Source: a virus. Taken from it: a stretch of 64,000 nucleotides of DNA. Below are positions 33,366 through 50,445 of the stretch, one piece after another; position 1 is the stretch's first letter, and each line of letters starts with the position of its first letter. Below the pieces are notes generated by a model. The model searched no databases, was not told the origin of the DNA, and was given only the letters and a program-made list of their open reading frames with translations. Made by a program: the position numbers and the translations under genes. The stretch is from positions 115,365 to 179,364 of IMG/VR virus record IMGVR_UViG_3300023202_000205. One strand, written 5' to 3'.

Positions 33366-34829
33366 CTACGTCTCGTGTAGTTTCTTGCCGTGCTCAGAAG
33401 GGACTTTATTACTGTCCCGCTTATCGCTATGCTTAGCAAAAAAGCGTTTACCCTTCATTTCAAAGCGGTCGCTCACATCGTAGAACGCCGCCAACTCACC
33501 TCGCAAGCACATAACAGAGTGGTTGCCTAGGATGCCATCATCGCGGCTTTTCACCCAGGTCAGTAGAGAATTGCCAGTAACGGGGTCCTGCTTGTTTACA
33601 GCAATAGCGTACTTCATAGGGGCTGTGAACATGCGGCAATCAGCTGCACAGTACATATCTGGTCGGTTGAAGGGGCCTCGTTTCACCACGTCAGCTGCCA
33701 TTTGCTGCGAGACAGCTATGATGCAGTTCGATCGATAAGCCTCTTGGGCAAGCGTATAACTGAGTGATTGGATCTCCATTTCCTTGGTCCGCTTGGTGGT
33801 CTGCATCACCGCGTCCGCCAGAATACCAGCCCAGTCGACATATACGTACGTAGGCTTCTTACCACGCGAGCGTAGCTGGCCTATTTCCGCCAATATAGGC
33901 GCAGCACCTTCATGCATGGTATTATCTTTGACCATGTCAAGCCAGTGCAGGTACTCGTCGACGTACGATAGCTTTCTGGCTGTTTTTTGATTATCGATAC
34001 CGGCATTTTTCACTACGCTGTCTATACTATTCTTCTCAAAGAGCGTGTAGTCAAGCCCAAGGGCACACCCTAGAATCTTGTTCCTCATAGATCGAGTCAT
34101 ACCCTCTTCTGCAAGGACCAACAACGCGTGGTTGCCTCCAAGTGCTTGTGCTACAGCTAATTGAATACCAAAAGTTGTCTTACCACCATTCTGGGGAGCA
34201 ATGATTCCAACAGCGGATCCATTTACAGGCCCACTGCCGTTCCCGGTACAAGAGTCGATCCAAGGGATGAGAGTCGCTACCCGCTCTCCGGCCTCTTCGA
34301 GGTTTGTATCGAGGATGCCGGAATGGGAGCGGCCTCCTTTGACAGAAGACTGCTTGGCCTCCAAGTCGAGAATCTGCTTGCCGAGCCCGTCTATATCTCC
34401 CGTCTCAGCTGCCCCTCGTAGGGTCTCTTTTGCAGCTGGTCTAAACACGCAAATCTCTGCAATAGCTACAATAAGGTCTCTTGCCAACGCCTCGCTTTTT
34501 TCCGTTACCAGTTTTCGTACACATATGAACTCGCCAAGTTTTTTAAGGTATTCTTCTTTCTTGCCCGGACTGGGTACATGGCTATCAACGAAGTAATCCA
34601 CCTCTGCTTTGATAACTGCTTCATCTGGGGCCATCCCGTGTTTCTCGTAGTATTCTACGATCGCTCTAAAAATAACAGCTTGTGCCGGGCTCCCCTTGAT
34701 CTCCGAGTGGACGAGGTGCCGTCCATCCAACTGAGCGCTGATAGCACTTTCTAGTAGAGTTGGCGACCTAACCATTTGCGCTAACAAGATATCCAGGTGG
34801 CCTTCTTGGTACTTGAACGTGCTACTCAT
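33366..34829 (-). CDS. DnaB-like replicative helicase (487 aa)
   Basis: After an N-terminal helical domain (1-150, as in DnaB) comes a RecA-type ATPase: Walker A IIAPQNGGKTTF (209-220), HALLVLAEEGM, Walker B PTYVYVDWAGIL, and IIAVSQQMAADV with the conserved Gln. DnaB-type hexamers unwind DNA at the fork and work with the primase encoded next door. The C-terminal LTWVKSRDD and basic tail fit. Coupled by a 4-nt overlap to the gene before it. Confidence 0.85.
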   Translation of the reverse strand: MSSTFKYQEGHLDILLAQMVRSPTLLESAISAQLDGRHLVHSEIKGSPAQAVIFRAIVEYYEKHGMAPDEAVIKAEVDYFVDSHVPSPGKKEEYLKKLGEFICVRKLVTEKSEALARDLIVAIAEICVFRPAAKETLRGAAETGDIDGLGKQILDLEAKQSSVKGGRSHSGILDTNLEEAGERVATLIPWIDSCTGNGSGPVNGSAVGIIAPQNGGKTTFGIQLAVAQALGGNHALLVLAEEGMTRSMRNKILGCALGLDYTLFEKNSIDSVVKNAGIDNQKTARKLSYVDEYLHWLDMVKDNTMHEGAAPILAEIGQLRSRGKKPTYVYVDWAGILADAVMQTTKRTKEMEIQSLSYTLAQEAYRSNCIIAVSQQMAADVVKRGPFNRPDMYCAADCRMFTAPMKYAIAVNKQDPVTGNSLLTWVKSRDDGILGNHSVMCLRGELAAFYDVSDRFEMKGKRFFAKHSDKRDSNKVPSEHGKKLHET

Positions 34830-35395
34830 TGAAGGAACTCCAGTTCTCCGGCGAAGGCCTCGTTAGCGACAGGTGTGGCCTTCAGCTCCATAATGGCGCC
34901 GTCTCTGTAACGCTTGACTATTTCAGGGAAGCCAAGCTTATTCGCCATCACAGCTCTGAAGAGTGGTGTAAGGTGTACCGTTTGATCCTCGAGGGTCTCA
35001 CGGTATCCGTAGATCTTCGCCCAACGTTGAAAGCAAATCAACTGGCTTTTATAGCGTCGTGCGGAATGAGTATCCGATACCTGGTAGGTCCTAATGGACC
35101 CGCTGATTTTCTCACTAGCAATAAGGGCGGGCCAGAACTTACCTAGTACGGCCATACCATCCAGTTGTGCTTTGACAAACTCACCGGGCGATTGCTCTCT
35201 TAGACGACAAAGCCGGGCGGCCTTGTAAAACTTGACGTAGTCTTTCTTGGCTATTCGTGCGGTACCGGATACGTAAGTCTTTCTCAGTTCAACAAACAGG
35301 TTCATGAGCTCTTCGGCAAGCTCTACCAACTCTGGGTCTGGTATATGGTGGCGTCCCTGGCTATCGATAATCTCGATGTGGTCGATACGTCCCAT
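34826..35395 (-). CDS. Hypothetical replication-operon protein (189 aa)
   Basis: A basic, helical 189-residue protein between the SF2 helicase and DnaB-like helicase genes, with overlaps of a few bases on both sides. A helicase-loader role would fit its position, but it has no ATPase motif and nothing in the sequence proves it. Confidence 0.55.
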   Translation of the reverse strand: MGRIDHIEIIDSQGRHHIPDPELVELAEELMNLFVELRKTYVSGTARIAKKDYVKFYKAARLCRLREQSPGEFVKAQLDGMAVLGKFWPALIASEKISGSIRTYQVSDTHSARRYKSQLICFQRWAKIYGYRETLEDQTVHLTPLFRAVMANKLGFPEIVKRYRDGAIMELKATPVANEAFAGELEFLQ

Positions 35396-36861
35396 TACCG
35401 TACCTCAACTTGAAATCCATTCTTCCTATAGACTCTTAGACGCTGCACAGACCTATACTGTAGGTTCTTGCTGAACTTGTCCATGAAATCAATGAGGAGC
35501 CCCTGCAGCTTGGAAGTCTTGTCACCTAAGCGAGATAGACGACCAGGTACCTGCCCAGAGTCCAGTGGGCTCCCAGTACCGTCAGCTCGGACAAGTACTG
35601 CTAGGTCCCGGAAGTCGACCCCTTTCGACCAGATCTTGGTAGCGATGGCACGCTTGAGCTCATGGGTCTCGAACGCTTTACGATACGCTTCTCGCATCTT
35701 CTTAGTACAGGGCTCCTGTTCCGGTGTCATAGCCCCTCTTTTCCGCATAGCAGTTATACGGGCTGGGGAAGGCTCCCCTGTAACAATCGGGAACTCAGGA
35801 AGTAGTTGCCCTAGGGCATACGCATGCTCCGTCTTATCTACCATGACCAGTAGTTGTTGGTCGTCGCCGATCTCTTCCTCCACCTTACGTACCGTGTACG
35901 CTATGAGGCGGTTACGATAATCGTTTAGCCAAAGACCTAGCCGGTCAGCATCGGCCGTATTCCTCATGCCAGCCACATCGGGACCGGCCGAAGACGTAAT
36001 CATCCTTACCTGCAGCTGAACAATGTTGCCGCCGGCCACGCCTTCTTGGTAGGTTACGTCAGCTATTTGCTGTCCGAAGACCGCTTCACCAAACCCCTCA
36101 GCTTTATCACTCCTGCCCTCCGGGGTAGCAGTAAACCCGAAAATACGTGCACGACGGAACTTGTTGAACTTCTTGACGTAGTTCTCTGTCATTAGCGTGT
36201 GGCATTCATCCGCCAGTATGAGGTTCACGTCCTTGGGAGCCTTATGAAGCGACTGAGAAGTACACACAGTAACTCGACGAGTATAGCTTTTGCCCGCACC
36301 AATCCGGCCTAGCTGGCTGCCCAGATCGTACTTGAGATCATCGTAGATGTTAGAAGCAATATCGTTGGAGTTGACTGTAATCAGGATTTCTGCGCGGGGA
36401 TAGACCTTAGCTAACAGCTTGACTAGGAAGGTCTTACCCCACCCAGTAGGGCACACGACAATCCCACCCCGGTGTGCTAGCAGTTTGGAAAACACTTCCT
36501 TCTGCCGCGACCTCCAACTGACTCCTTCGATCTGAGATAAGTCAGGCTTCCCCAGACCGTCGTCTACAAAGTCCTCCACTGTTACTTGATACCCGTACTT
36601 ATTCAAGTCAGCTAAGATACGTGGGCCATATCCTGCTAACGCACAGAAAGCAGCAGTGTCCCCTTCCTCCGTATACCAGAATAGGGGTATTTTACTGATA
36701 TTACGTGTACGCACTGGGTATGTAGAACCAGTAGCTACGTCTTCCACCCACTCAGTATCCACTGAATGCCGCGATACAGTACAAACCTCTTCGTAAAACT
36801 CGCCCAGTTCGCTGGGGAAGAGGGCAAGAGCGCGCCCCAGGTATCTTAGCTTAGCTATCAT
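35395..36861 (-). CDS. SF2 DEAD/H-box helicase, UvsW/XPB-like (488 aa)
   Basis: I start at the ATG of MIAKLRYLGRAL, which overlaps the E1-like gene stop (ATGA). Motif I VVCPTGWGKTF, motif II LILADECHTL, motif III FGFTATPEG and motif VI QVPGRLSRLG are all clear, with a helicase C domain between. The RSRQKEVFSKLL Q-motif-like start and overall size match T4 UvsW and related branch-migrating helicases. It would remodel forks and recombination intermediates. Confidence 0.88.
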   Translation of the reverse strand: MIAKLRYLGRALALFPSELGEFYEEVCTVSRHSVDTEWVEDVATGSTYPVRTRNISKIPLFWYTEEGDTAAFCALAGYGPRILADLNKYGYQVTVEDFVDDGLGKPDLSQIEGVSWRSRQKEVFSKLLAHRGGIVVCPTGWGKTFLVKLLAKVYPRAEILITVNSNDIASNIYDDLKYDLGSQLGRIGAGKSYTRRVTVCTSQSLHKAPKDVNLILADECHTLMTENYVKKFNKFRRARIFGFTATPEGRSDKAEGFGEAVFGQQIADVTYQEGVAGGNIVQLQVRMITSSAGPDVAGMRNTADADRLGLWLNDYRNRLIAYTVRKVEEEIGDDQQLLVMVDKTEHAYALGQLLPEFPIVTGEPSPARITAMRKRGAMTPEQEPCTKKMREAYRKAFETHELKRAIATKIWSKGVDFRDLAVLVRADGTGSPLDSGQVPGRLSRLGDKTSKLQGLLIDFMDKFSKNLQYRSVQRLRVYRKNGFQVEVR

Positions 36862-37520
36862 TTCGAGTAAGACTCCATCGCTAACAAGTTGAAGACAGTA
36901 TGGCGATCTGTCGGCAACTCTCGCAGCCACTTACTGAACTGCTGGACTAGGAGCCCGGCAGCTATATTGGCTATGTGGATAGACATACGTGTCGTACAAG
37001 TTGCTTGGAAAGCCTCTTCACGATCGAACAACGTGGACTCGTAGTAATCCCTAGAATCAGGGTCGCTGACAGAGAGGACGTGAACCGTATCTCCTGCTAC
37101 CCGACTATCCAGGAATAGATTGTAGGTGCTTGTCCGGAAGAGCTGACCGCGAGTGTTGATGTTGTCGACACAGCAGAAGACGATAGGGTGCTCGTAACTC
37201 TCCGTAGGGAACCTCCTGTGCAGGCCCTTAGCTGTCGTAGCTCCATCGGAGGCAGGAAATAACTGCTGTCGTTCGATGTCCCCGAGAAGAGCTTCTACCT
37301 TAGGCACACCTATATCATCGCGCCGCCAACCTTGAGGCCCTATATTCGATTCCTCTACCGTATCATGGTCGTAAAAGGCCAGATTACGAGCCCCTGCGGA
37401 ACAAAGCTGAAGCACAACCTGCCTCCCTACGGCGCCTACCCCGGCTACTGCTATCGGCAGGTTCCACAGTATATCAGGCGGGAGCAACCCCGCCTGTCTC
37501 TGGTATTGTACAGTGCTCAT
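36858..37520 (-). CDS. E1-like ThiF-family adenylyltransferase, set A (220 aa)
   Basis: The Rossmann nucleotide loop GVGAVG (27-32), the acidic pair DHD (51-53) and the Asn/Arg/Lys region SNIGPQGWRR...K74 match the ThiF/E1 superfamily, which adenylates the C-terminal Gly of a ubiquitin-like protein and passes it to a Cys. C175 in ATCTTR is a candidate acceptor. It is a minimal, single-domain E1. The JAMM peptidase and E2-RING genes are directly upstream and the SF2 helicase overlaps downstream, so it is expressed with replication genes. Confidence 0.85.
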   Translation of the reverse strand: MSTVQYQRQAGLLPPDILWNLPIAVAGVGAVGRQVVLQLCSAGARNLAFYDHDTVEESNIGPQGWRRDDIGVPKVEALLGDIERQQLFPASDGATTAKGLHRRFPTESYEHPIVFCCVDNINTRGQLFRTSTYNLFLDSRVAGDTVHVLSVSDPDSRDYYESTLFDREEAFQATCTTRMSIHIANIAAGLLVQQFSKWLRELPTDRHTVFNLLAMESYSK

Positions 37521-37525
37521 TTATT

Positions 37526-39418
37526 TTACTCACCTTTCAGGTATTCGCTGGCCGTGTAAGGCTCGTCAGTTGGATTTACGTCGATGCCGAACATCTCCAG
37601 CCGGTCGACTGCAGATAGGTCATACCCCGATGATCGTACGTAATTGACTACGTAGTCGAACACGGATGCTTTGTCCTTTTCGGCTGACTTCTTTCTGAGA
37701 TCAGCGATGCCCTTTTCTATATCTTCCACCGTGTCCCCGTTCTGCAGGCATTGGTGGACTACTTGAGCGACATCGATCCATGCATCACTGATATCGGTAA
37801 AGTCGTTGATGTCATCACCCACAATTGTTTTTGGGCCTAGGATCTCATCCTCCTCGTCGTCACCAATATAGAACCCTACCGGGTTACGATCATCCTCCTC
37901 CTTCTCATCTTTACCCATGGGTGCTAGTTCGGACATAGCCGTTTCTAACTCTGTTAGGCCGGCCGCCACCGATTCCAGAACGCTTATCTCATCGATACTA
38001 AGGTAGATCACCATATTGTCATAACAGACCCAATGGTGGAGAGTTTGTATAGGGGTATCGAAACAGTCAAAAATTGTACCAGCAACGGCCGGATCTCGAC
38101 TAGATACGTAAGGAAACAATTTGTCTTCTACCTCTGAAAGAATTTCCCTATACTCGGTATCGTGTACCACAGGCTTGTCCAAGCTGAATAGCTCGTCGCT
38201 GGTGAGCACCATCGTCTTTTTATTTTTACCAACACCGGTCTCGTATTTGAAAGATACAACCTGATCTTTCCCTACAGCAGCGACGACCATATCGCACTTT
38301 TCCAACTGATCTGCCAGTTCTTGAGAAACATCTCTAAGGGTCAGAGATTCCTGAGAAGTGTTCGCTAATTCCACGAACATGTCCTCGTCCATCATCCAGA
38401 AGACGGAGTCTCTTCGAAGCGAGAATTCGGTGTCATCCGGCGGCCTCGGAAGAGTAGGCGTGCTGTAAGGGCCACGGCTATGATCATAGGGATCAAAGCC
38501 ATTAAGATAAGACAGATAGGAATCATCATCGTCCCACATACCATACGGATCCACAATGGTGGTCTGGGGGCTGGTTTTGGAAACACCTCGACCGCCTCCA
38601 CTGGGGATCCCTTGGTGGTAGACACCATAACTGTTGGGAAAATACGTGTACGTCTCTTCGACATTGTTGGCTACCTCCTCCAGCCATTCCTTGCGCACCT
38701 TCTCATCTACGGCTGGCTCGTCAAAGCTGATGACCGTCTCCGCTTCGATCGATATCACGCGCTCCGAACCACCTGGGTCCCTAAACCGATAGTCACAGTG
38801 GTACCTGCCATCAGAGCTGAGGATGAACATGACACCCCAAGAAGCGCTACCGAAATTATCCTTACCATAGAATGTATCCAGATCTTTCTGACTGGGAGAG
38901 GGATCGAAGCCAGGGTGGGTATGGATCCAAATACGCATGAACTGGTCGACCTTGAGGCGGTACTCACCTTCAGGGTCGGCCATGTCGGCTACTAGCTCCG
39001 ACAAGGAGCCAGGGAGGATCTTCGTGTGAACACTGCTTACCTCCTGCGGGGGCACTAGAATGTCCACAACCAACATATAGTCGTCAGGATCGGTAACTGC
39101 GAGACCGCCGATCTCCGTGTTAACGCAATCCCGCATGAAGTGAAGCTTAGCCCACGCAAAAGGCGTAAAACGCAGCTTCAAACGAATACTGTCGCTGACA
39201 CAGATGGGGGATGGGGTCACGGGCTGGATGGCCCTTTTCTGAGTAACTCCTTTCTGCGCGTCAGTGGTTGTCTGGGGAACACTCGGTAACCGTGACTTCG
39301 TCACTGTCTTCGTGCCCTTCTTCGCAGTGCTCTTCTTCGTAGGCCCGGAGGTCTTGTGCTGCTCTTTCGTCTCCTGCTTGAGCGCGGCGCCGCCATTGTC
39401 GCACGATTTCCTGGTCAT
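37526..39418 (-). CDS. JAMM/MPN metallopeptidase, set A (630 aa)
   Basis: Residues 75-260 form a JAB/MPN domain: E102 (TEIGGLAV), then IWIHTHPGFDPSPSQKD with H166, H168, S176 and D179, the full zinc-binding and catalytic set of deubiquitinase-like JAMM enzymes. The N-terminal 70 residues are Lys/Thr-rich and disordered, and about 370 residues of unknown acidic domain follow. A strong GAGGAGG supports the start although it overlaps the E2-RING gene by 158 nt. It probably matures or removes the ubiquitin-like proteins. Confidence 0.85.
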   Translation of the reverse strand: MTRKSCDNGGAALKQETKEQHKTSGPTKKSTAKKGTKTVTKSRLPSVPQTTTDAQKGVTQKRAIQPVTPSPICVSDSIRLKLRFTPFAWAKLHFMRDCVNTEIGGLAVTDPDDYMLVVDILVPPQEVSSVHTKILPGSLSELVADMADPEGEYRLKVDQFMRIWIHTHPGFDPSPSQKDLDTFYGKDNFGSASWGVMFILSSDGRYHCDYRFRDPGGSERVISIEAETVISFDEPAVDEKVRKEWLEEVANNVEETYTYFPNSYGVYHQGIPSGGGRGVSKTSPQTTIVDPYGMWDDDDSYLSYLNGFDPYDHSRGPYSTPTLPRPPDDTEFSLRRDSVFWMMDEDMFVELANTSQESLTLRDVSQELADQLEKCDMVVAAVGKDQVVSFKYETGVGKNKKTMVLTSDELFSLDKPVVHDTEYREILSEVEDKLFPYVSSRDPAVAGTIFDCFDTPIQTLHHWVCYDNMVIYLSIDEISVLESVAAGLTELETAMSELAPMGKDEKEEDDRNPVGFYIGDDEEDEILGPKTIVGDDINDFTDISDAWIDVAQVVHQCLQNGDTVEDIEKGIADLRKKSAEKDKASVFDYVVNYVRSSGYDLSAVDRLEMFGIDVNPTDEPYTASEYLKGE

Positions 39419-41261
39419 GAATTTCCTCCTCTACGCCAGTGGCGAGGGTGATTTCTAAATCGCCGGCGAGTGAATTCCACCAGCGCAATTTGTCTCGTAA
39501 CAGCGCGAGCGAATAAGCTTGCGTCTGACGCTCCAGGTTTCTGGTAACGGTTTTCACTACTTCAAACGCAGTTTCTGTTGTAAAGCCCCCGTCAAAGAAC
39601 GATAGAAGGCGTATGAAGTCGCTATCGAATGCGGGCATATAGTGGGCCTTTAGCTCGTGTAGCCAGAACTCCATGTACGCGATGTCGGACCGAAAAACAG
39701 ACCCAAAACCAAGTCCCTCTGGGTCGCACTCAGGGCAGATAAAAGTGTTCGTGTATCGGCAAAGGGAGCGATTATCTATCCTGACTTCAGCACCACAGGT
39801 GCACTCTTCCTTGTAAAGTATATCGGGCGTTATTCGTAACGGAGATCTCGTCATGTTACGAGGATCACATACGTCTGGACGGCGCCGTATGTGTCTTTGA
39901 AGACGCTCATCCTCCCCTATACCAACAGTAGTTGTACCGTCTTCTTCGTCCCTGCAACATGCTTGACACCCGTAGTCACGGTACCCAAGCACAACCTTGT
40001 TCTCGTCGATCGCTTCGCCTCTGTACTGCCTCGTGCAGACAGGGCATTGGTAGACACCCTCCTCTGCAGCTGCTATCTCAGCGCGGAAACGTGGTGTACA
40101 CTCCGCACAGGCTACTGCTGTTAGAGAAGACCCATTACGCTCTGGAACAGGAATATCATACCATCGAGGGGGGTAGACTTGTCCACAACATACATTACAT
40201 ACCGGAAGCGAGGCAGGGTGGTAGTACTCTTGGTCAACCGAGTTAAAAACAGCACATCGCTGGTGAAGTACTCCAAAGGCGGTATGCACCGCGTCGCCTT
40301 CTATTTGTTCCTGACATACCTCACAGGTGTTATCGGGCCTTCCGACGCCTCCCCCATACCAGTTACAGATAGATACAAAAGGACCGTCAGGGTTGTAAGT
40401 AGCCAGCACCCTTTCTGTAAGAAATATCGCATCCGATATGAGACCATTTTTAAGAGCGTTTTTAACACCTTCGAAAGCATTTCCGAAGCATACATTACCT
40501 GAGTTCACATGTGGGTGTATAACATGAGAGTCGTCGTACGACCTGTTAGGTGGCCCCACAGAAGTTACCTTGATGCAATCAGGGTAGGAGTCTTCTTCAC
40601 GTTGGCTATCTGAGACTAGTCTTCTGAGCTTCTCCAGTAGTATATGTATGTAAAACCCATCAAAAGATACCTCTACCCCATCTTCTGAGAAGGTAACTGG
40701 GGGTGTGCGTACGACTATTCGCTTCTGTTCGATGCAAGCGAATTCATGTGCCGCCCCTTCTTCACACTCTAGCCGCTCGTCCCCCATAGCGAAGGCAATA
40801 CGTCCCCGAAGAGTGCTATTAAGCAGCAGTCGTATTTCCCTTTGACAAAAATCATCTGTAAGAAAGCAGTCACGGCGAGACATGGTTTCCGCGTAACGCA
40901 GTGCCTCCTGCTCTACATCCTCCTGAGAGGCCACGAGTCTGAGCTCTTCCAGAGCCTCTGTAGCTTCTTGTAAAGTTGTCCTCAGCGCCCCTATTTTGCG
41001 CAAAGTAGCGTCATGCTGAGCAGTAGGCCATATTTTATCGGCGCCGTCACTATCAAAGAAACTGCACAAGGTAAGAGCATGCAGTTGGGTCAGTCTTGTA
41101 CTACTACGTAGTATGACTGCCTTCTCCTTGAAATACTTAGTGACTTTTTGTCGAGACTGAGATTCTAAAATTTCCTCTAAGATTTTAGTAAATATGCCAA
41201 CCCGCTCTTCAGAGGGTGCTGGGAGACCCTCTATGTTCACTGTGTTTCCAACCTGCTCCAT
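39261..41261 (-). CDS. E2-like domain fused to RING-like zinc modules, set A (666 aa)
   Basis: Residues about 190-300 end in IHPHVNSGNVCFGN with C258, followed by a helix and YNPDGPF...W, the pattern of E2 ubiquitin-conjugating folds around the active-site Cys. Directly after come Cys/His clusters: C313-C316 and C336, C355-C358, C385-C388, C406-C409 and C432-C435, then another CTCGAE...CPECD set, which look like RING or treble-clef zinc fingers. The N-terminal 130 residues are helical. The fusion suggests a combined E2 and E3. The ATG follows GGGGGA. Confidence 0.75.
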   Translation of the reverse strand: MEQVGNTVNIEGLPAPSEERVGIFTKILEEILESQSRQKVTKYFKEKAVILRSSTRLTQLHALTLCSFFDSDGADKIWPTAQHDATLRKIGALRTTLQEATEALEELRLVASQEDVEQEALRYAETMSRRDCFLTDDFCQREIRLLLNSTLRGRIAFAMGDERLECEEGAAHEFACIEQKRIVVRTPPVTFSEDGVEVSFDGFYIHILLEKLRRLVSDSQREEDSYPDCIKVTSVGPPNRSYDDSHVIHPHVNSGNVCFGNAFEGVKNALKNGLISDAIFLTERVLATYNPDGPFVSICNWYGGGVGRPDNTCEVCQEQIEGDAVHTAFGVLHQRCAVFNSVDQEYYHPASLPVCNVCCGQVYPPRWYDIPVPERNGSSLTAVACAECTPRFRAEIAAAEEGVYQCPVCTRQYRGEAIDENKVVLGYRDYGCQACCRDEEDGTTTVGIGEDERLQRHIRRRPDVCDPRNMTRSPLRITPDILYKEECTCGAEVRIDNRSLCRYTNTFICPECDPEGLGFGSVFRSDIAYMEFWLHELKAHYMPAFDSDFIRLLSFFDGGFTTETAFEVVKTVTRNLERQTQAYSLALLRDKLRWWNSLAGDLEITLATGVEEEIHDQEIVRQWRRRAQAGDERAAQDLRAYEEEHCEEGHEDSDEVTVTECSPDNH

Positions 41262-41300
41262 AAGTCCCCCACTAAGGGCTTGCGCCCCTGTGTTAGCGCA

Positions 41301-41333
41301 AAAAGAACCCCCGCCAGGCTATCCTGGCGAGGG
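41301..41333 (-). terminator. Rho-independent terminator between the two operons
   Basis: A GC-rich stem CCCTCGCCAGG / CCTGGCGGGGG is followed on the minus strand by TTCTTTTTG. It lies after the ubiquitin-like gene A and before the E2-RING gene, so it separates the SbcCD-containing operon from the replication operon. Confidence 0.8.
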
Positions 41334-41369
41334 CTCCATCGTTACGGTATGTTACTCGAATCTATGCGG

Positions 41370-41639
41370 TCAGTTACCCTCCGGATTGGACGGGGTGACG
41401 GTGACCTTGTCATTGTCCTCCAGTTCGTCGTCCAGGTGGGCCGTGTGGCCGTTGCGGCGCACTTCCCGGCCGTGATCGCCGTCGACGACGTCTCCGACAC
41501 GGGACCCACGGGGGACTTGCCGGTAGCCGGCGTCACCGGTATCGGAGCGCACAACCAGCACGCGAACGGGACCGCCGCCCTGGTTGTCGATCTCCACGTC
41601 CTGTCCGGGGGTGACGCGGATGTTGGTCTGGTCGCTCAT
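41370..41639 (-). CDS. Ubiquitin-like beta-grasp protein A (89 aa)
   Basis: The second half (GREVRRNGHTAHLDDELEDN, then DKVTVTP) has the 'RxNG...dxxLxDxDxVxVxP' pattern of ThiS/MoaD/ubiquitin-like folds. The chain ends SNPEGN, so cutting off the last Asn would expose a Gly C-terminus for an E1. The gene is visibly more GC-rich than its neighbours. It lies between sbcC (4 nt downstream of it) and a terminator. Assignment rests on pattern and on the E1, E2 and JAMM genes nearby. Confidence 0.65.
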   Translation of the reverse strand: MSDQTNIRVTPGQDVEIDNQGGGPVRVLVVRSDTGDAGYRQVPRGSRVGDVVDGDHGREVRRNGHTAHLDDELEDNDKVTVTPSNPEGN

Positions 41640-41642
41640 AGT

Positions 41643-44003
41643 CTATTCTCTCTGAATGGGATCTAGGGTAATTACGTGATCGAAAAATCCCACAAGGGAT
41701 TCTTCATGGTCGACCATAATGACTTGTCTACCAGTAGCTCCGGCTGCCTCCTTCAGCTTCAAAATCAGATTTTGAAGATGCACCACATTGTCCTTATCCA
41801 AGTGGTTGGAGGGCTCATCGAGTACGAGTAGGCCTACTTGTCGGGCAAACGTATCCGCCATGGCCGAGCGGAACGATGTCGAAGCTATTACCTTTTGTCC
41901 ACCAGAAAGTCGGGCAGCGGCGAAAGGTGGACTATCTTCCTTACTAGCAACAAAAGCGAGCTCTTCATCCAAGTGCATGGAGAAGTTCGCCTCCCATATC
42001 GACAAGTAGTGTGCTATTCGGCGGTTAAGAACGGCTGCGTATTCCCTCATCAATAACGAGGGGAGCCCGCTAACGTGGAGGACCTCGCGTGCCCTCTTGC
42101 AGATCTTGACCCATTCTGCGTCCACAGACTCGACTGCTAGCGTATCCGCCATACGCTTTTTCGTCGCAACATATTGTTCCTGTTGTACTTCGAACGAGGT
42201 GATCTCCCTATCGAGCTGCTGTCGCGATTGTGTTCGCGCAAACAAAGTCTCGACTTGTTTCTTCGCCTCCTTGATTTCTGCTTCGTTAGGCATCTCGGCT
42301 ACTGCCCCGAGTTCCTCACGCGCGTTCCTAGCTGACTGAAGCTGTTTCTCCAGCTTCTCTACAATGGCCACTTTGCCTTTGACAGTAGTGTCCTGCTCGG
42401 CCATCGCTATACTAGTACGCTCATAACTGGAGACGAGTTTCTGGAGACGTTCCACTTCCTCTTCGTTGAGTGGATTAGGAACTGATGTCTGGAGCTGCCC
42501 TTCCAGCATCTCTTTCCGGTTTTGAAGGCTCTCCAGGGAGCTGGTGTGGGACGTCAAGGCATCCCGCTGAGAACGAACCTCGTTTAGCCGATTCTGGACC
42601 TTTTCCTTGCTTCGCTGAACGGCCTCTATGGCATTTGAACGACTCTCATCAATTAAATGAGTGAATCGGTCGATTTCTGCCGTCAACCGCTGGCCCTCTT
42701 CTTTCCAGCGCTGATTGAGTGAGGCCTTCTGCTTCTCAAGCTGGTCTAGCTTCTCTTGCGATTCTTTCTGGAACCGCTCAGCCACCTCTTGTCCGCAGGT
42801 AGGACACTGGCCACTTTCAAAGATTGCCAGCTGCTCGGAAGTCTCCGAGATCTGACGCTCCAGGTCTCTGGCCTCTTGTTGGGCCTCCCTTTTAAAGGTC
42901 TGGAGCTGCTCGGAGAGCGTGTCCCGCTTTTCATGCAACTCCTTATCCTCTGGCAGAGAAGGCAGTTCCGACTTTCCTGTTAACTGGAGCTCTCGAGTAC
43001 GCAGCGTATCTGAGAGCTTCGAGATGGTTTCTTCCAGCTCGATAGAGTCACCTTCTGGACGCTCTCCCAGCTGGTCTAGTGACGCTTTAACCGTCGCCAG
43101 CTGGCTTCTCAGCTCCTCTGTGGCTTGAACGGCCCTCTTGTCGGCCTCGTGCTGGGCAAGGAGTGATCGTGCGTCCTCAGCAGCGGATTTGACGTCTCCA
43201 GCCATCTTACGCAGGGAATCCCTGCGCTCAGTCAGCTTGTCTAGCTCCTCCACTGCTTCGGTAAGCTCGGTGGCAACCTCCTCGATTCGTTCGTCAGCTT
43301 GTCTGATGGCAACGTTGTTCTGAGACTGCTTGTGCAGGCGGTTCAGCAGATCTTCGTAGGGCTGTAGTTCGGAAATCTCAGCCTCTACCTCGGTCAGTTG
43401 CTTGTTCAACTTAGCAAGGCGGTCCTCATTCTCCTCAATCGACTCCTGGATCATTTTGATCTGCTGATCTAAACCAGGAGTGACGCTGTAACGAGAGGCC
43501 TCGTTTCTGAGATGCTTTTCTGCCTCAGAAGCCTGCTGCAGTCCCACAGTCTCCTGAATCTCGCGGAGACGCTGGGTGTTGGTACTGAACAAGATTGAGT
43601 CGATCTTACCCTGCGGTACGAAAACATTGTTGAGCAAGGCGTCCACCGTGGTGGAGCAGAGCGACTCGATGAACTCAGTGATTTCGGTCTTGCGAGTTAA
43701 CGTCTCCCCCGGCGTGACCAGTTTCTGGCTATTCCGCTTTCCAAGCGTTCTCGTAATCGAGTAGGACGAGTCACCGTGCTCGAAATCAACGGTGACCGTC
43801 GCAGTGTCTGCTCCCCACATCACGTTATCCACTTTGGAACCTTCGGCAGCTATTTGGCCAGTAATACCGAAGCGGATCATATCGAGGACCGTAGATTTGC
43901 CTGAGCCATTCTTACCCAGGATGCCGCAGATGCCGGCACAGAACTCCCCTTCAAAACGCTCATGGCAGCCGAAGTTTTCAGCGAAAACGCGCGTGATCAG
44001 CAT
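41643..44003 (-). CDS. sbcC: SbcC/Rad50-like ATPase (786 aa)
   Basis: N-terminal Walker A GKNGSGKST (30-38), two very long coiled coils separated by a zinc hook CPTCGQ near residue 400, then the ABC signature LSGGQK near 700 and Walker B LLVLDEPSNHLD. This is the complete Rad50/SbcC architecture, shorter than the 1000-residue bacterial form and similar to phage gp46. With SbcD it processes DNA ends and hairpins. Ubiquitin-like genes flank it on both sides within 4 nt. Confidence 0.93.
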   Translation of the reverse strand: MLITRVFAENFGCHERFEGEFCAGICGILGKNGSGKSTVLDMIRFGITGQIAAEGSKVDNVMWGADTATVTVDFEHGDSSYSITRTLGKRNSQKLVTPGETLTRKTEITEFIESLCSTTVDALLNNVFVPQGKIDSILFSTNTQRLREIQETVGLQQASEAEKHLRNEASRYSVTPGLDQQIKMIQESIEENEDRLAKLNKQLTEVEAEISELQPYEDLLNRLHKQSQNNVAIRQADERIEEVATELTEAVEELDKLTERRDSLRKMAGDVKSAAEDARSLLAQHEADKRAVQATEELRSQLATVKASLDQLGERPEGDSIELEETISKLSDTLRTRELQLTGKSELPSLPEDKELHEKRDTLSEQLQTFKREAQQEARDLERQISETSEQLAIFESGQCPTCGQEVAERFQKESQEKLDQLEKQKASLNQRWKEEGQRLTAEIDRFTHLIDESRSNAIEAVQRSKEKVQNRLNEVRSQRDALTSHTSSLESLQNRKEMLEGQLQTSVPNPLNEEEVERLQKLVSSYERTSIAMAEQDTTVKGKVAIVEKLEKQLQSARNAREELGAVAEMPNEAEIKEAKKQVETLFARTQSRQQLDREITSFEVQQEQYVATKKRMADTLAVESVDAEWVKICKRAREVLHVSGLPSLLMREYAAVLNRRIAHYLSIWEANFSMHLDEELAFVASKEDSPPFAAARLSGGQKVIASTSFRSAMADTFARQVGLLVLDEPSNHLDKDNVVHLQNLILKLKEAAGATGRQVIMVDHEESLVGFFDHVITLDPIQRE
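42230..42245. repeat. Degenerate palindrome of the TGTTC-N4-GAACA family (site 6)
   Basis: GTGTTC-GCGC-AAACAA, two mismatches, in the sbcC coding sequence. It is the weakest of the seven sites but falls at the expected spacing between sites 5 and 7. Confidence 0.4.
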
Positions 44004-44006
44004 GGG

Positions 44007-44267
44007 TTACCCGTTCCGGACGAAGAGGCTCCGGATCTTACGGGCCAGCCGGACGACGACGTTGCCCTTGATCTTACGGACGAGCAGGAGGGTCTGCCCA
44101 TCCTGAACGACCTCGCCGAGCTGCACTTCCCGCCCATCGATGCGGGCTTCCTGCCCAGTCGGGTCGAGGCCGGCGGTCCCAAGCACGTCGTTGACGGTGG
44201 AATTTTCGGGAACCATATATTCCTCGATTCTCCCAGGTATACGGCCAGCGCGAACGGTGATTGACAT
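44007..44267 (-). CDS. Ubiquitin-like beta-grasp protein B (86 aa)
   Basis: The layout strand-strand-helix-strand (MSITVRAGRIPGRIEEYMVP, then STVNDVLGTAGLDPTG) followed by ARIDGREVQLGEVVQDGQTL is typical of MoaD/ThiS/ubiquitin-like proteins. After the last strand, LLLVRKIKGN resembles the place where such proteins end in Gly; here 14 more residues follow, as in precursors that need trimming. Both ubiquitin-like proteins have a Gly-Asn at this point. It sits between sbcC and the E1-like gene B. Confidence 0.7.
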   Translation of the reverse strand: MSITVRAGRIPGRIEEYMVPENSTVNDVLGTAGLDPTGQEARIDGREVQLGEVVQDGQTLLLVRKIKGNVVVRLARKIRSLFVRNG

Positions 44268-44315
44268 AGTACTATTACTCCTGCCCTAATGGGCTATGGG
44301 TGGTGAACAAGTGAT

Positions 44316-45014
44316 TCAGACCAGGGAAGCTTCCCTGGTCATGGTTGTGGGTGGGTTGGCGTAGAAAATGTTCTCGGTCTCTGGCAGGTCCCCTCCGGCC
44401 CGAGACCACTCGAACCAGCGGATAAAGGACCAGACTGCGAAAGCAGTCACCAAGGCGGCCGTAGGGCCAACTGTGGTACGAGCTCCACACAGAGAGTCGC
44501 TGGCTTCCTCGTCCTCGCAAAGCGTACTCTCCCAGAGGCGTATCTGAGCCGGCATGGTTGGCTGTACTGCGTAGACCCTCCCCTCGTCTCGACCCATACG
44601 GGTCTCGATCATTAAGGAGATCCCTGGCTTGTACTTGATGGCGCCTTCCCAGATCTCCTTGCGGGAGGCCATGGTATCGGTCAACAAGAAAACAACGTCA
44701 CCAAGTAAGGTACGTCCATCAACTGCTTCGTCGTGAGTGGTAATTTCCAGGCCAGTATCGGTTTGGATGCGTTCCGACAAGGCATGTACTTTCTGTTTAC
44801 CAATGTCCTCGATACCAAAAATCTGATTGGCTACGTTGTGGTCCTCCACCTTATCGAAATCCCATGCGTGGAGATTCTGAACGCCCAGTTTGGCCAGTTC
44901 CATAGCGATGCGAGACCCAGTAGCCCCTACCCCGATAAGGTCAACACGTCGGTTCGCGAAATGGTCGGGGGAGAACACTAACAGGTGACGAAGAGGTTCA
45001 ACAAGATTGCCCAT
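44316..45014 (-). CDS. E1-like ThiF-family adenylyltransferase, set B (232 aa)
   Basis: GVGATG (28-33), DFD (52-54), HNVANQIFGIEDIGKQKV with the conserved Asn, Gln and Lys residues, and late Cys candidates C166 and C176 (SDSLCGARTTVGPTAAL) match ThiF/E1 proteins. It is related to but clearly distinct from the set A enzyme. The genes for JAMM B and the ubiquitin-like protein B flank it in the same operon, supporting a dedicated pathway. Confidence 0.88.
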   Translation of the reverse strand: MGNLVEPLRHLLVFSPDHFANRRVDLIGVGATGSRIAMELAKLGVQNLHAWDFDKVEDHNVANQIFGIEDIGKQKVHALSERIQTDTGLEITTHDEAVDGRTLLGDVVFLLTDTMASRKEIWEGAIKYKPGISLMIETRMGRDEGRVYAVQPTMPAQIRLWESTLCEDEEASDSLCGARTTVGPTAALVTAFAVWSFIRWFEWSRAGGDLPETENIFYANPPTTMTREASLV

Positions 45015-45019
45015 GTTGC

Positions 45020-45769
45020 CTATTTACTCCTTTTCTTATTGCCACCTCGGTTTTTCTTGGTGGTTGCGGGGACGATTGGCCCCCCTGAGCGTCGGCGATC
45101 CGTCTGTCGAGTAAAACGGGTGCCACCATACGAGTAGCCCCGATAAGAGCCTCCAGGAAGACCAGACTTGTAGGAAAGCTTCTTGACCTTGGAGGATACG
45201 ACATCCTCGACCGTCTTATCCAGGTCGTCCGCGGACTCCCACAAGATCTCAACAGGACAGCCACTGACAGTGATCCAGTTGTTACCACAACGATAGTATA
45301 CGGTGATATGGGCATCGCCTTTCTTATTTACGATACCACGAATCCATATCGAGTGATCATCGCCGTACTGTTGACAGAAGTCCTTCATCTGCTGGTCATC
45401 CTGTCCAGATGGCGAAACGCCCATACTGGCGTGGGAGTGGAACCAGGAGTTGAGACGGTTAACGCGGAACCGCTCATCTTTGGGGTCGGTGACCCCGTTC
45501 TTAGCGTCTTCCTCCATGACCTCTATCGCTGCCTGAGCCAGGCCCTCTGGGGTCAGCTCAGTGGTTGTAGCATGGCAGTCCTGGGCGGGTACGATGCATT
45601 CGGACAAAACGAAGTCGCCGGTCTCCATCTGATTGACGACCATGAGCCAGCCAACCTCCATTGCCACCTTTTCAACAAGTTTGTGCATATACCGAGCGGC
45701 GGACTCGGTAATGTAGATTGTGGGGGTACCGTGGAATAACGGTTTCACGTCAGGTTTTACTGAGAACAC
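45020..45769 (-). CDS. JAMM/MPN metallopeptidase, set B (249 aa)
   Basis: A stand-alone JAB/MPN domain with E38 (AMEVGWLMVV) and WFHSHASMGVSPSGQDD, giving H111, H113, S121 and D124 for zinc and catalysis. The C-terminal 50 residues are Gly/Arg/Lys-rich (SYRGYSYGGTRFTRQTDRRR) and may bind nucleic acid. It probably trims or cleaves ubiquitin-like protein conjugates. The gene is 33 nt from the E2-like gene B and 5 nt from the E1-like gene B. Confidence 0.88.
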   Translation of the reverse strand: MFSVKPDVKPLFHGTPTIYITESAARYMHKLVEKVAMEVGWLMVVNQMETGDFVLSECIVPAQDCHATTTELTPEGLAQAAIEVMEEDAKNGVTDPKDERFRVNRLNSWFHSHASMGVSPSGQDDQQMKDFCQQYGDDHSIWIRGIVNKKGDAHITVYYRCGNNWITVSGCPVEILWESADDLDKTVEDVVSSKVKKLSYKSGLPGGSYRGYSYGGTRFTRQTDRRRSGGPIVPATTKKNRGGNKKRSK

Positions 45770-45802
45770 GCGTGTGTCCCTTTCTATGATTATTTCTGAA
45801 GA

Positions 45803-47254
45803 CTAACTAGAGACGTCAGCAGACTCCGCTATGCGCCCGTTAGACGATTCGGTCACCTCTTGTATTGCGCTTTTACGTTCCCTCTCTTTTTCTTCCTCGA
45901 TTTGTGCCCTGGTCATACTAACAGGCCACTTGCGAATATGTCTACCAGCAGCATCTGCTACGTTCACCGTTTCGACAAACGCGATACAGATCTGCACGAG
46001 AGCAGACCACTCATAGTTTGCTACCAACTGAGGGATGACCGCATCCATGTTGCCGAGGCAGGGCCTTCCATCAGAGAACAGATGGGGGCCATTCATGCCG
46101 GCCTCATAGCCTTGGACTTTACGTGTCAGATTGTAGAATCGGACACCTGTGACTCGCTCATCGATGACGAGCTTGAACGCACCGATCTCATGTTGATCCC
46201 CCGTCTCAGGATGTATAACATGCAGCAGGTCGGTTTCCACGGTCATGCAGTTACCTCTCCAGTCCACTGACCGCACCTTTGGTACTTTCAAAAGATTGTC
46301 GAACTCCTTAGACAGTTTCTGTCCTAGCTCCTTCTTATAGCTGTTAAAGTTATCCAACTCGTGGGAATACTCCTGATGGAGCCTCAACGATTTTACCAGA
46401 TCTTTTTGATACCCGGCAATTTGTTCCTTTAAAGAAGAAGCCTCCTGCATAAGACGACTCTCTTCTTTATGTGCTCGCGCTGAGCACGCTTTTACGTAGC
46501 GTGCTTTGATCTCTTCCGTATCTCGTTTATAGCCCTCTTGATGTATTCGCGCCGCTTCCCTGAAGATTCTCCTCAGAATCTCCTGGGAACCTTCATTACA
46601 AGTATGGTCAGCTTTGTGATAGATGTAGAGAATGGACTCAGTGAGCGCCCCAACCTCGTCACCCTCGTCAGTGACGATAGCGGTACCATTCAGGAAAGGT
46701 CCTACGGAAGAGCTGTCACGAAATGATACCGAGTTACCCCACATCTCAGGGGGTACTTCGGTGATTCCTCTAACATTCGACCCCCAGATAATCACTTCAA
46801 AATACTTATCGCCATCACTCGTCGTGCGAGAACAGGCCCTCCCATCTGCTGTCTTGAGAAAGACGTGTTTTTCGAAGGTAGATACCAGAATCTCTTCGGA
46901 TAATTTTGTGAGGACGTCGATGAAAGTTGGATTTACGGTACTATCCACCTGAACTACCTTAATGGTAGAAGGGTCGACCTCTATAGAGGCCGGAGTGCCG
47001 TCTGGGTTGGCTAACGCTACGAACTGAGCGCCTTCCTTATCGGTCTCTACAATGTTGCCTACATCATAGCCAAAATCGGCGAGCTTTTTTACTCCAGCGT
47101 TCGTAATGCCCCAACAGGGGATGGCTTCTTCGATTGGATCGTCTTCGCTGCCTAGTGCATCCTCGGCAGTGATTCGTATACGTAATTCACGAAGCCGCTC
47201 ACGAGATACGGCCTCCTTCATTACGTAAAACACATTTCCACCAGCATTTGCCAT
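45803..47254 (-). CDS. E2-like conjugating protein, set B (483 aa)
   Basis: Residues 300-450 end with GPHLFSDGRPCLGN (C399), then a helix and VNVADAAGRHIRKWP, the pattern of bacterial E2/UBC folds around the active-site Cys ('PHxxxDGxxCLG ... N ... W'). The middle is a long coiled coil (about 245-310), and the N-terminal 230 residues are a separate beta-rich domain. It has no RING-like Cys clusters, unlike the set A protein. It is the second gene of the SbcD-led operon. Confidence 0.78.
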   Translation of the reverse strand: MANAGGNVFYVMKEAVSRERLRELRIRITAEDALGSEDDPIEEAIPCWGITNAGVKKLADFGYDVGNIVETDKEGAQFVALANPDGTPASIEVDPSTIKVVQVDSTVNPTFIDVLTKLSEEILVSTFEKHVFLKTADGRACSRTTSDGDKYFEVIIWGSNVRGITEVPPEMWGNSVSFRDSSSVGPFLNGTAIVTDEGDEVGALTESILYIYHKADHTCNEGSQEILRRIFREAARIHQEGYKRDTEEIKARYVKACSARAHKEESRLMQEASSLKEQIAGYQKDLVKSLRLHQEYSHELDNFNSYKKELGQKLSKEFDNLLKVPKVRSVDWRGNCMTVETDLLHVIHPETGDQHEIGAFKLVIDERVTGVRFYNLTRKVQGYEAGMNGPHLFSDGRPCLGNMDAVIPQLVANYEWSALVQICIAFVETVNVADAAGRHIRKWPVSMTRAQIEEEKERERKSAIQEVTESSNGRIAESADVSS

Positions 47255-47265
47255 GCGGCCTCTCC

Positions 47266-48360
47266 TTATTCCTGCTGTTTGATGAATTGTTCGCGTTTCA
47301 GACGTATTACATCCAGCGGGCCAGCCGCCGGCTCTAACAGATCAAGCACGAACTGGTAGGTAAACGGCTCTGTATCATGGTCGACCAAACGAGTGAGTAG
47401 TGCCTCAACGGATATGATGTCATCGACTTCTTCTCGTCCGCCGAAGTCATCTAGCTCAATGTCTTCGGGGGCATCAACGGGCTCGCTGATCACAATGGCG
47501 CTGTCTGTCTGATGAGCTATGCGTCCGACTTCGGCGGCACATTCGGGGGTAAATACGACCCATGCTACAGGTGGCAAAGGCTGTCGCTCCCCTAGAGTAT
47601 CGGTCAGCCACTCCTCTAAAGCGGGCACCTGATCGTCGGCGGTAAAACGGAACTTCTTGATTGGACGGTAAGGTAGGGGCAGGCGCTCAATGGAGAGGTC
47701 GGTATTGACCAACATACACGATTTTGGGCCAGCCTGGCCGATATCCCGAGCACTTCCCGGACCAGTATAGTAAGCCCACTGGCCTGGTCGTACCTGTTGC
47801 TCCCATTCAATGTGAATATCCCCCATGACGACTAACGGGATATCTTTGGGAACCCACTCCAGATCACAGTTCCATTGCCCCTCGAAGCGGAGCGCTTGCT
47901 TACACGCCTGGTGTAGGAACAGGCACTGTGGTTGTTCCTCGCGGGCACCTAGTTCCACCAATTGTTGTTCGATTTCATCCTTCAACGTGTAATCGAACCC
48001 AACGCAGGTAACCTTTCCTATCTCCCGCTGTGTGCCGTCTCCGATATGCTGAACGTGATCGTGACAGGCGACATACCAGGGTGTTGACCGCTTGTCGTGG
48101 TTGCCCTGTATGGCGTACACGTCGACGCCCGTTTCTCTGCATCGATCCATCTGACGGCGAAAGAACTGGAGAACCTCAGGGCTGGGCTTGATGGTATCAA
48201 ATAAGTCCCCGAGCAGCACCAGCGGGAGGTAGAGCTCTAGGGATAAGTCAACCACCCCTTCCAAGCTGAGGAACGTATCTCCTGTAATACCGGTCATCCG
48301 GCGCCAGATAAACGGGTCCAGGTGTAGATCGCCGAGAGCTAGGAATGCCGGCTCAGACAT
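47266..48360 (-). CDS. sbcD: SbcD/Mre11-like nuclease (364 aa)
   Basis: Calcineurin-like phosphoesterase motifs are all present: ALGDLHLD (residues 7-14), VLLGDLFD, AIQGNHDK, a lone His in CLFLHQA and VVMGDIHIEW. Length and C-terminal region match SbcD/Mre11, the Mn2+-dependent nuclease partner of SbcC. It is separated from sbcC by the ubiquitin-like set B (E2, JAMM, E1, ubiquitin-like), an unusual split of this gene pair. Confidence 0.9.
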   Translation of the reverse strand: MSEPAFLALGDLHLDPFIWRRMTGITGDTFLSLEGVVDLSLELYLPLVLLGDLFDTIKPSPEVLQFFRRQMDRCRETGVDVYAIQGNHDKRSTPWYVACHDHVQHIGDGTQREIGKVTCVGFDYTLKDEIEQQLVELGAREEQPQCLFLHQACKQALRFEGQWNCDLEWVPKDIPLVVMGDIHIEWEQQVRPGQWAYYTGPGSARDIGQAGPKSCMLVNTDLSIERLPLPYRPIKKFRFTADDQVPALEEWLTDTLGERQPLPPVAWVVFTPECAAEVGRIAHQTDSAIVISEPVDAPEDIELDDFGGREEVDDIISVEALLTRLVDHDTEPFTYQFVLDLLEPAAGPLDVIRLKREQFIKQQE

Positions 48361-49586: not shown

Positions 49587-49689
49587 GGAGCCTCCTATGT
49601 GTGTCTATTTTTGCATAATTTATACATCCTGTCACAGATATGTTATTCAGTCGGTAGCCGATACCCGGCCTCTATCAGTCAGTCAGTCA

Positions 49690-50273
49690 GCCACAAATAC
49701 CAAGCCTCTGAGCGGGCATAGCGAGAGTGCGCAGCTTCCCGCTTCTCCCCGATCACATCCGGGTCACAGATACCAAGCCTCTGAGCGGGCATAGCGAGAG
49801 GAGGTCTGGCCGGCTTTACCGCGAGATCGTGGTGACGTCACAGATACCAAGCCTCTGAGCGGGCATAGCGGGAGACGCCCTGCATGTTGCTCGTCACAGA
49901 TACCAAGCCTCTGAGCGGGCATAGCGAGTATCAGCGGTTCATAGGCTGATTCCCGTGATGGCGAGTCACAGATACCAAGCCTCTGAGCGGGCATAGCGAG
50001 CGGCGGTAACCTACGCTGGCGTCACAGATACCAAGCCTCTGAGCGGGCATAGCGAGAACAGGATACTGTAGACGACCTCTTTCGTCACCGCTCGGGTCAC
50101 AGATACCAAGCCTCTGAGCGGGCATAGCGAGAAACTGCGGCCGGTGCTGGCAAATGCCCATCCTGTGTCACAGATACCAAGCCTCTGAGCGGGCATAGCG
50201 AGTCCCACCACGCCCGGCAGACCGAGTGCACGCATGCGTCACAGATACCAAGCCTCTGAGCGGGCATAGCGAG
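49690..50273 (-). CRISPR. CRISPR array 1: 9 repeats, 8 spacers
   Basis: Repeats are 36 nt. In plus-strand coordinates they start at 49690, 49763, 49837, 49893, 49965, 50021, 50096, 50167 and 50238. Spacers are 37, 38, 20, 36, 20, 39, 35 and 35 nt. The repeat begins GTCACAGATACC and ends GGGCATAGCGAG. I read transcription leftward: the leader is on the right, changed repeats lie at the left end, the minus-strand repeat ends in GTGAC as many type V repeats do, and its AUGCC/GGUAU stem needs a G-U pair available only on that strand. Repeat fragments continue to 49631. Confidence 0.97.
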
Positions 50274-50445
50274 AGGGCCTTTATAATTCGGTTCATGGAA
50301 CCGTGTTATATCGCTATCCGCGAGAGCCCTCATCTCAGCTGATCCTAGCACCCTTTAGATCACTGCAATATCTCCACCTAAACCATTATCATCAAAGAAC
50401 ATCGAGTGCCTCCCGTAATTTCAGAACCAAGAAGGCGCTCGAAAC
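50274..50445 (-). promoter_or_regulatory. Leader of CRISPR array 1
   Basis: These 172 bp match the leader of array 2 with only 10 differences. Near the first repeat the minus strand has TTATAAAG, a likely -10 box that would start transcripts at about the first repeat, and next to it the palindrome CGGTTC-ATG-GAACCG, a possible operator. The leader starts 3 nt after the stop of the 213-residue protein gene. Confidence 0.8.

Follow-up and report, generated by a model that had tools for sequence, protein, structure and literature searches.

We analysed the last 64 kb (the window) of the 179,364-base virus record IMGVR_UViG_3300023202_000205. Between positions 36858 and 48360, the minus strand of this window holds two E1 (ThiF-type) genes, two JAMM metallopeptidase genes, two E2-like genes and two genes for small beta-grasp proteins, the candidate ubiquitin-like modifiers (Ubls), arranged around sbcD and sbcC. 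These genes probably provide two working pathways, A and B, of ubiquitin-like conjugation and deconjugation. Judging from the families involved, the two pathways would be separate and orthogonal, their conjugation covalent and their steps in the order proposed below.

A double Ubl locus conserved in divergent phages

All ten open reading frames (ORFs) lie where a preliminary description, made from the sequence alone, had placed them, and in the same minus-strand order: sbcD, E2-B, JAMM-B, E1-B, Ubl-B, sbcC, Ubl-A, a terminator, E2-A, JAMM-A and E1-A. Set B is thus ordered E2-JAMM-E1-Ubl and set A Ubl-E2-JAMM-E1, and the catalytic motifs are intact throughout both sets. The intergenic gaps are 3-48 bases long, apart from one 108-base gap, which contains the terminator, and one 158-base overlap. 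The terminator (41337-41300, minus strand), likewise anticipated after Ubl-A, comprises a GC-rich hairpin of 15 bp and the UUUUU that follows it; a consensus promoter/terminator scan did not pick it up.

Four further viral contigs of 57-180 kb (L204, L205, L206 and L208) share the order sbcD-E2B-JAMM-B-E1B-UblB-sbcC-UblA-E2A-JAMM-A-E1A-helicase, which rejects an assembly artefact. Since L206 is a near-copy of L205, the double locus is present in three divergent genomes, and the recurrence of a ten-gene order among them excludes chance. Across L204, L205 and L208 the proteins are about 25-61% identical to those of the window (E1-B 56-61%, E1-A 39-43%, SbcC 35-37% and, in local alignments, E2-A 24-34%), with SbcD orthologues at the same place (43-46%), and a 180-kb relative is co-linear through the replisome genes (PolA 49%, UvsX 58%, TerL 62%). 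The E2 motifs and the JAMM HxH..S..D residues are kept in every double-locus contig, and the ratios of non-synonymous to synonymous substitution (dN/dS) between L204 and L208 range from 0.08 to 0.36 for the nine genes where dS was computable, indicating purifying selection. A GC-rich hairpin also lies 3' of Ubl-A at the homologous place in L204, L205 and L208, suggesting that the locus probably yields more Ubl-A than E2-A. Taken together, the recurring order, the purifying selection and the retained terminator mark the locus as a conserved unit and not an accident, and with the gene content and motifs they bear out the earlier claim that a phage carries two full Ubl cassettes interleaved with its sbcDC genes.

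Activating enzymes, peptidases and E2-like proteins

The two predicted E1/ThiF-type proteins carry Pfam ThiF domains (Table 1) and are the sole ThiF genes of the record. Both have the features of an E1-like enzyme, namely the ATP motif GxGxxG, DxDxVE and a candidate catalytic Cys (175 in E1-A, 176 in E1-B) that is invariant across six phage E1s, and a profile search with E1-B matched ThiF/MoeB structures. The two JAMM proteins were likewise as described, with E-x-G and HxH..S..D complete as expected of a JAMM deconjugase (E102, H166, H168, S176 and D179 in JAMM-A; E38, H111, H113, S121 and D124 in JAMM-B). JAMM-A matched Pfam Prok-JAB at 0.003, below the cut-off. A four-sequence profile, built from both window JAMMs and two other phage JAMMs, matched Rpn11 (3e-5) and CSN5 in the PDB, as well as the Bub protein 9ea4 (BubCD) at 0.002.

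The E2-like proteins share the site pattern HPH-x(6-7)-C-x-G, represented by HPHVNSGNVCFG in E2-A (Cys258) and GPHLFSDGRPCLGN in E2-B (Cys399); an HPx...Cys spacing, as in HPN...CL, is typical of textbook E2s. H249, P250, C258 and G260 are invariant in the E2-A family and P, H, C, G and N in the E2-B family, and the two families are homologous (hhalign E 6.7e-10) over an alignment that spans the active site. The AlphaFold core of E2-B (pLDDT, the per-residue confidence of the model, about 75-90) consists of a four-strand meander, an active-site loop and helices, which is the UBC topology. Its best Foldseek match among 350,542 PDB chains was the E2 UbcH7, although weakly (probability 0.63, E 0.08), and the UEV protein Fts ranked 13th; a Foldseek search against BFVD was uninformative. 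Model and motif therefore give E2-B a UBC-like fold with a predicted catalytic Cys, and the E2-A model has the same predicted order of elements at moderate to low confidence. The textbook spacing of the motif, the homology of E2-A and E2-B and the UBC-like model of E2-B together support the assignment of both as E2s.

The E2s had no family match in Pfam, PADLOC, PHROGs or NCBIfam, nor by PDB sequence search, and both the E2 and the Ubl families found here are absent from Pfam and PHROGs. E2-A had been named an E2-RING protein; a Cys-rich tail is indeed there, with 20 Cys between residues 299 and 512 and six CxxC pairs, but it gave no Pfam RING match and the RING is putative.

Modifiers and their C-termini

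By profile, both small proteins are beta-grasp proteins, as had been proposed. The Ubl-B family profile matched SAMP2 (2.5e-4), PF1061, TtuB and ThiS, and that of Ubl-A matched SAMP2 weakly (0.018) along with PF1061, MoaD and Urm1; the two families share homology (1.4e-8). Ubl-A ends in ...PEGN-COOH, while the beta-grasp of Ubl-B closes with ...RKIKGN69 and is followed by a 17-residue tail. The motif [KREDQ][GS][NAP] was found within nine residues of the end in 49 of 75 non-redundant Ubls, compared with 3.9% of ORFs.

Two or three Ubls occur in tandem, each unit with a similar end motif, in L189, L204, L208, L209, L284 and L287, and the counterpart of Ubl-A is a triple tandem in L204, L205 and L208. 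From their sequences, these tandem genes would be poly-Ubl precursors processed by JAMM. Two contigs from Melainabacteria metagenome-assembled genomes (MAGs) carry two- and three-unit precursors beside E2, JAMM and E1 (L284:2640-3290 and L287:2344-3225); their units are nearly identical, each ending in VRGN, making them polyubiquitin-like genes in bacteria.

Distribution and origin of the two sets

Scans with single E1 proteins as queries returned no close relatives; an E1-motif DNA pattern, together with lineage alignments, did. In IMG/VR the pattern matched at least 118 stretches, and 90 of those listed have a JAMM gene in the stretch. All four gene kinds are present in 52 of the 80 viral loci retrieved with a B-type E1, so that a full B-type set is found in at least 52 viral contigs besides this one, and A-type sets (Ubl-E2-JAMM-E1) form a phage lineage of their own. 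In the crAss-like phage cr85_1 and Flavobacterium phage Fpv3 the E1 lies beside JAMM and E2-like genes. In Xanthomonas phage PhiXhv-12 its neighbours are a protein with the E2 motif and a Cys-rich tail and a small protein, ending in GG, that is likely a Ubl; the crAss-like Bacteroides phage DAC17 has a ThiF gene by tblastn match. The E1s of cr85_1, Fpv3 and PhiXhv-12, which are isolates or complete phage genomes, are annotated only as 'thiamine biosynthesis' or ThiF. A ThiF-like gene also stands amid dense tRNA genes in Virus Rctr197k from a DAMO enrichment (L003, ~176,756-177,379), with no JAMM or E2 detected nearby.

B-type sets with E1s 47-57% identical occur in MAG contigs of Melainabacteria/Obscuribacterales, Doudnabacteria, Parcubacteria, Moranbacteria and Kaiserbacteria. 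The Kaiserbacteria contig has flanks of apparently pilus-type chromosomal genes, read from their translations, which places B-type sets outside viruses as well. Some B-type sets have two different E2-like genes in tandem (L207:6164-9133, L219:5775-8990, L221:5943-9073 and L284:3426-6232), of which the second may be a cofactor or an inactive E2.

The preliminary description had taken two such sets in a phage to be undescribed. What is rare is the double, sbcDC-interleaved arrangement; phages with such genes are not rare, as single cassettes are common in IMG/VR. A search of open-access papers in PubMed Central (PMC), with subscription papers and preprints outside its scope, found none on E1-E2-JAMM-Ubl cassettes in phages. 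Among 96 distinct E1-bearing virus records searched whole, most have one E1, and two E1s were found in the window phage, in L204, L205, L206 and L208, and in three others (G001, G053 and G078). These three have E1 pairs of different lineages without the sbcDC arrangement: 14-27 kb apart in G053 (207 kb; L300/L207) and G078 (223 kb; L301, L302), and 3 kb apart, and of other lineages, in G001 (74 kb; L155).

The E1 tree places the A sequences in a clade with single-set phages (SH-aLRT 99) and the B sequences in a separate clade (98), and E2, JAMM and Ubl sort into A and B by similarity as E1 does. A single clade for the A and B E1s of the double loci, as expected from tandem duplication of one cassette, was rejected by the approximately unbiased (AU) test (p 2.4e-43). 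This rejection and the separate clades indicate that the phage line combined two already distinct pathways.

Locus layout and neighbouring genes

The features of the locus are collected in Table 1. SbcC is an ABC ATPase with a zinc hook and SbcD has Mre11-type motifs, in line with the genes' initial naming; besides the matches in the table, SbcC matched Rad50 (2e-39) and SbcD matched the NCBIfam models Mre11 (1e-12) and SbcD (3e-6), all below cut-off. The SF2 helicase gene is co-linear in L205 and L304 (42-50% identity).

Table 1. Features of the double Ubl locus and of the replisome genes that follow it (window coordinates).
Feature	Coordinates	Strand	Evidence
sbcD, Mre11/SbcD-like nuclease subunit	47266..48360	-	Metallophos 7e-8; DLH/GDLFD/GNHD motifs
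E2-B, coiled-coil N-half and UBC-like core (residues ~325-450), predicted catalytic Cys399	45803..47254	-	AlphaFold, Foldseek, E2-A family homology
JAMM-B metallopeptidase, 249 aa	45020..45769	-	PADLOC JAB 4e-6, motifs, profile match to Rpn11
E1-B, ThiF-type adenylating enzyme, 232 aa, Cys176	44316..45014	-	Pfam ThiF 2.5e-19, ThiF/MoeB structure profile matches, tree
Ubl-B, beta-grasp modifier, 86 aa	44007..44267	-	Family profile
sbcC, Rad50/SbcC-like ATPase, zinc-hook CPTC400	41643..44003	-	phrog_77 4e-48; LSGG, DEP, CxxC
Ubl-A, beta-grasp modifier, 89 aa	41370..41639	-	Family profile; Ubl-B family homology
Intrinsic terminator between Ubl-A and E2-A	41300..41337	-	Hairpin fold z -4.3
E2-A, UBC-like core (residues ~180-290), predicted catalytic Cys258, Cys-rich (possibly zinc-binding) C-terminal region	39261..41261	-	E2-B family homology, motif
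JAMM-A metallopeptidase, 630 aa, long C-terminal extension	37526..39418	-	Motifs, family profile
E1-A, ThiF-type adenylating enzyme, 220 aa, Cys175	36858..37520	-	Pfam ThiF 1.5e-16; A-lineage clade SH-aLRT 99
SF2 helicase, overlaps E1-A, opens replisome genes	35395..36930	-	ResIII 5e-16
DnaB-like, replisome genes after helicase	33366-34829		DnaB_C
Primase-like, replisome genes after helicase	32274-33362		DNAG_N
PolA	28972-32256	-	DNA_pol_A

The record belongs to a tailed phage, as shown by TerL at 54809-56611 (phrog_675, 2.5e-49), which a terminase PF03237 search of the record did not detect; the window also encodes UvsX, a clamp loader and a Dda helicase. The PolA gene is a fusion with an N-terminal uracil-DNA-glycosylase (UDG) domain (UDG 2.6e-9, residues 103-215), 49% identical to its L304 counterpart over nearly the full length. 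Elsewhere in the window are a gene for a Cas12f/Cas12u1 effector (51101-52981, minus strand; PADLOC 3e-69/9e-71) and a CRISPR array (49687-50280) of nine ~36-nt repeats with start-to-start spacing of 56-75, whose repeat had no exact match in other viral contigs.

Proposed function and alternatives

In the pathway that we propose, JAMM would cleave at the conserved [K/E]-G-[N/A] end, either trimming the Ubl precursor or, in the relatives, dividing the poly-Ubl; E1 would adenylate the trimmed end and load it on its own Cys (175 in A, 176 in B), from which the Ubl would pass to the Cys of E2 (258 in A, 399 in B). E2 would then attach it to the target, its putative zinc-rich tail (A) or coiled coil (B) taking the part of an E3, and JAMM would remove it again. 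The Ubl sets would be expressed with the Mre11-Rad50-like nuclease and, downstream of the terminator, with the helicase and replisome. As the position of both sets is conserved, B separating sbcD from sbcC and A preceding the helicase, the recombination-replication machinery is the first guess for the target. We tentatively favour the view that the phage reversibly tags its own recombination-replication proteins, foremost SbcCD, while regarding it as short of probable. The fuller proposal, that two orthogonal Ubl codes reversibly modify the phage Mre11-Rad50 and replication-recombination machinery by way of new E2 families, G-N/G-A Ubls and some polyubiquitin-like precursors, is still more doubtful; if true, it would be a viral counterpart of the ubiquitin/SUMO control of DNA repair.

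Several observations weigh against two conjugation pathways directed at phage repair and replication proteins. Across phages at large, the association between Ubl cassettes and replisome genes was not significant, E1 lying within 15 kb of DnaB (in 26 other cassette phages) or of PolA (in 19) no more often than by chance (P 0.07 and 0.12), and no link to sbcC was found, as sbcC is not near the cassettes outside the double-locus clade; the argument for a repair-protein target therefore comes from one clade. The Ubls have a putatively exposed C-terminal Gly but end in K/E-G-N or G-A and not in GG: among the 75 non-redundant Ubls, 37 have GN or SN, 14 have GA and only six have GG. Finally, the preliminary description had looked to structure prediction for a UBC fold in both E2-like proteins, and this was obtained as a UBC-like core for E2-B, whereas the E2-A model was too poor to judge and its Foldseek matches against the PDB were meaningless. 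E2-A is a candidate E2 by its Cys motif and its homology to E2-B.

Other uses of the same genes have to be considered. The phage may carry the sets for takeover of its host or for counter-defence, tagging host proteins such as nucleases and defence sensors or stripping host Ubl conjugates with its JAMMs. The close B-type sets in bacterial MAG contigs, at least one of them with chromosomal flanks, suggest that hosts may run a compatible Ubl pathway open to hijack or block; against this, each phage set is complete, including an E1, an E2 and a Ubl of its own, where pure deconjugation needs JAMM alone. We consider host takeover rather unlikely. We also think it unlikely, and somewhat more so, that one or both sets are a phage-borne defence giving superinfection immunity: they would tag proteins that rival phages use in their virions or in replication, in the way that Bil acts on behalf of hosts, and the Cas12f region would belong to the same defence. 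The order of set A is that of BilABCD, which we take to be Ubl-E2-JAMM-E1; E1 and JAMM match PADLOC models of E1-E2 and JAB proteins from defence systems; the Cas12f gene and nine-repeat array lie directly upstream of the locus, and the related phage G052 retains a Cas12f homologue (33%). However, the sets lie within sbcDC-helicase-replisome genes and not in a defence cassette, no Cas12f was found in G051 and G054 (which may be fragments) although they keep the double Ubl locus, and the presence of two sets, the purifying selection and the core-gene context fit a housekeeping role better.

A sulfur-carrier system, in which ThiF proteins activate ThiS/MoaD/TtuB-like carriers for tRNA thiolation or a cofactor, would explain why the E1s match ThiF and MoeB and why TtuB, ThiS and MoaD appear besides SAMP2 among the matches of the Ubl profiles; SAMP2 and TtuB double as sulfur carriers and protein tags. 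We judge this explanation very improbable: in dozens of viral loci the neighbours of E1 and JAMM include E2-like proteins with an intact catalytic Cys, which have no role in sulfur transfer, the locus ORFs scanned gave neither a rhodanese nor a cysteine desulfurase, and the E1 scores are far below the ThiF/MoeB cut-offs. Hardly credible at all is a role in virion assembly, with JAMM processing the Ubl. A phage JAMM and Ubl do this in the lambda gpI/gpK tail-tip pair (PMC1779556; meeting report PMC12908700), but the JAMMs here are without an NlpC/P60 domain, are encoded in the replication region and are accompanied by E1 and E2, both missing from lambda.

Ubiquitin-like conjugation in bacteria has been known mostly from host immunity. 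Complete E1-E2-JAMM-Ubl sets turn out to be widespread in tailed phages, where the label 'thiamine biosynthesis ThiF' hides them. Our proposal of conjugation pathways encoded by the phage implies that phages, and not only hosts, may run ubiquitin-like protein modification. It raises the possibilities that viruses use Ubl conjugation for their own biology and that prokaryotic Ubl tagging is tied to DNA-break repair, as in eukaryotes, and it bears on the origin of tandem Ubl precursors.

Comparison with known systems

Iyer et al. (2006) described bacterial E1/E2/JAB/Ubl operons of types 6a-6e; a tail pair of Ubl and JAB, of the lambda type, was the only phage case that they listed (PMC1779556). 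The present sets resemble types 6d (PRTRC-like) and 6e in having separate or adjacent genes for E1, JAB, an E2-like protein and a small beta-grasp protein, and type 6e also in its Ubls of one to three tandem domains and its treble-clef-like Zn protein; the 6d E2, in contrast to the HPH-bearing E2s found here, lacks the active-site His (PMC1779556). Unlike the types of Iyer et al., the present sets are phage-borne, doubled and within sbcDC. A PRTRC cassette was rejected, as the E1s scored 39.8 and 27 bits with PRTRC_ThiF against an NCBIfam cut-off of 144.75 and no Pfam ParB, Prok-E2 or Prok_Ub match was found in the locus.

Bil and Bub are host operons (PMC13373217) of immunity or stress, whereas the present sets are viral, two per genome and interleaved with Mre11-Rad50 genes. 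They are further set apart from the host operons by E2s that match no Pfam or NCBIfam family and by Ubls ending in K/E-G-N or G-A. Bil, like the present sets, has four separate genes, Ubl, E2, JAMM and E1, an order matched by set A and not by set B (E2-JAMM-E1-Ubl); there was no Bil-named match among the best 25 PADLOC rows, from a library that may be without Bil models.

Type II CBASS shares with the present sets a ThiF-type E1 (Cap2) and a JAB peptidase (Cap3) of related folds, as seen in the PADLOC matches. Cap2, however, is a single E1-E2 fusion acting on a CD-NTase, whereas here E1 and E2 are separate genes accompanied by a Ubl; with no fusion, and no CD-NTase match among the locus genes scanned, type II CBASS was rejected. 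The lambda pair of gpI (Ubl) and gpK (JAB and NlpC) is, as here, a phage-encoded Ubl and JAMM, but one of tail genes with a structural processing role and no E1 or E2, and a pair of this type was rejected given the lack of an NlpC match and the replication context. As to phage SbcCD of the T4 gp46/gp47 type, the SbcC and SbcD-like genes here are genuine, having a zinc hook and nuclease motifs; unlike that type, in the clade of the window phage a Ubl set of four genes separates sbcD from sbcC, and a second set follows sbcC.

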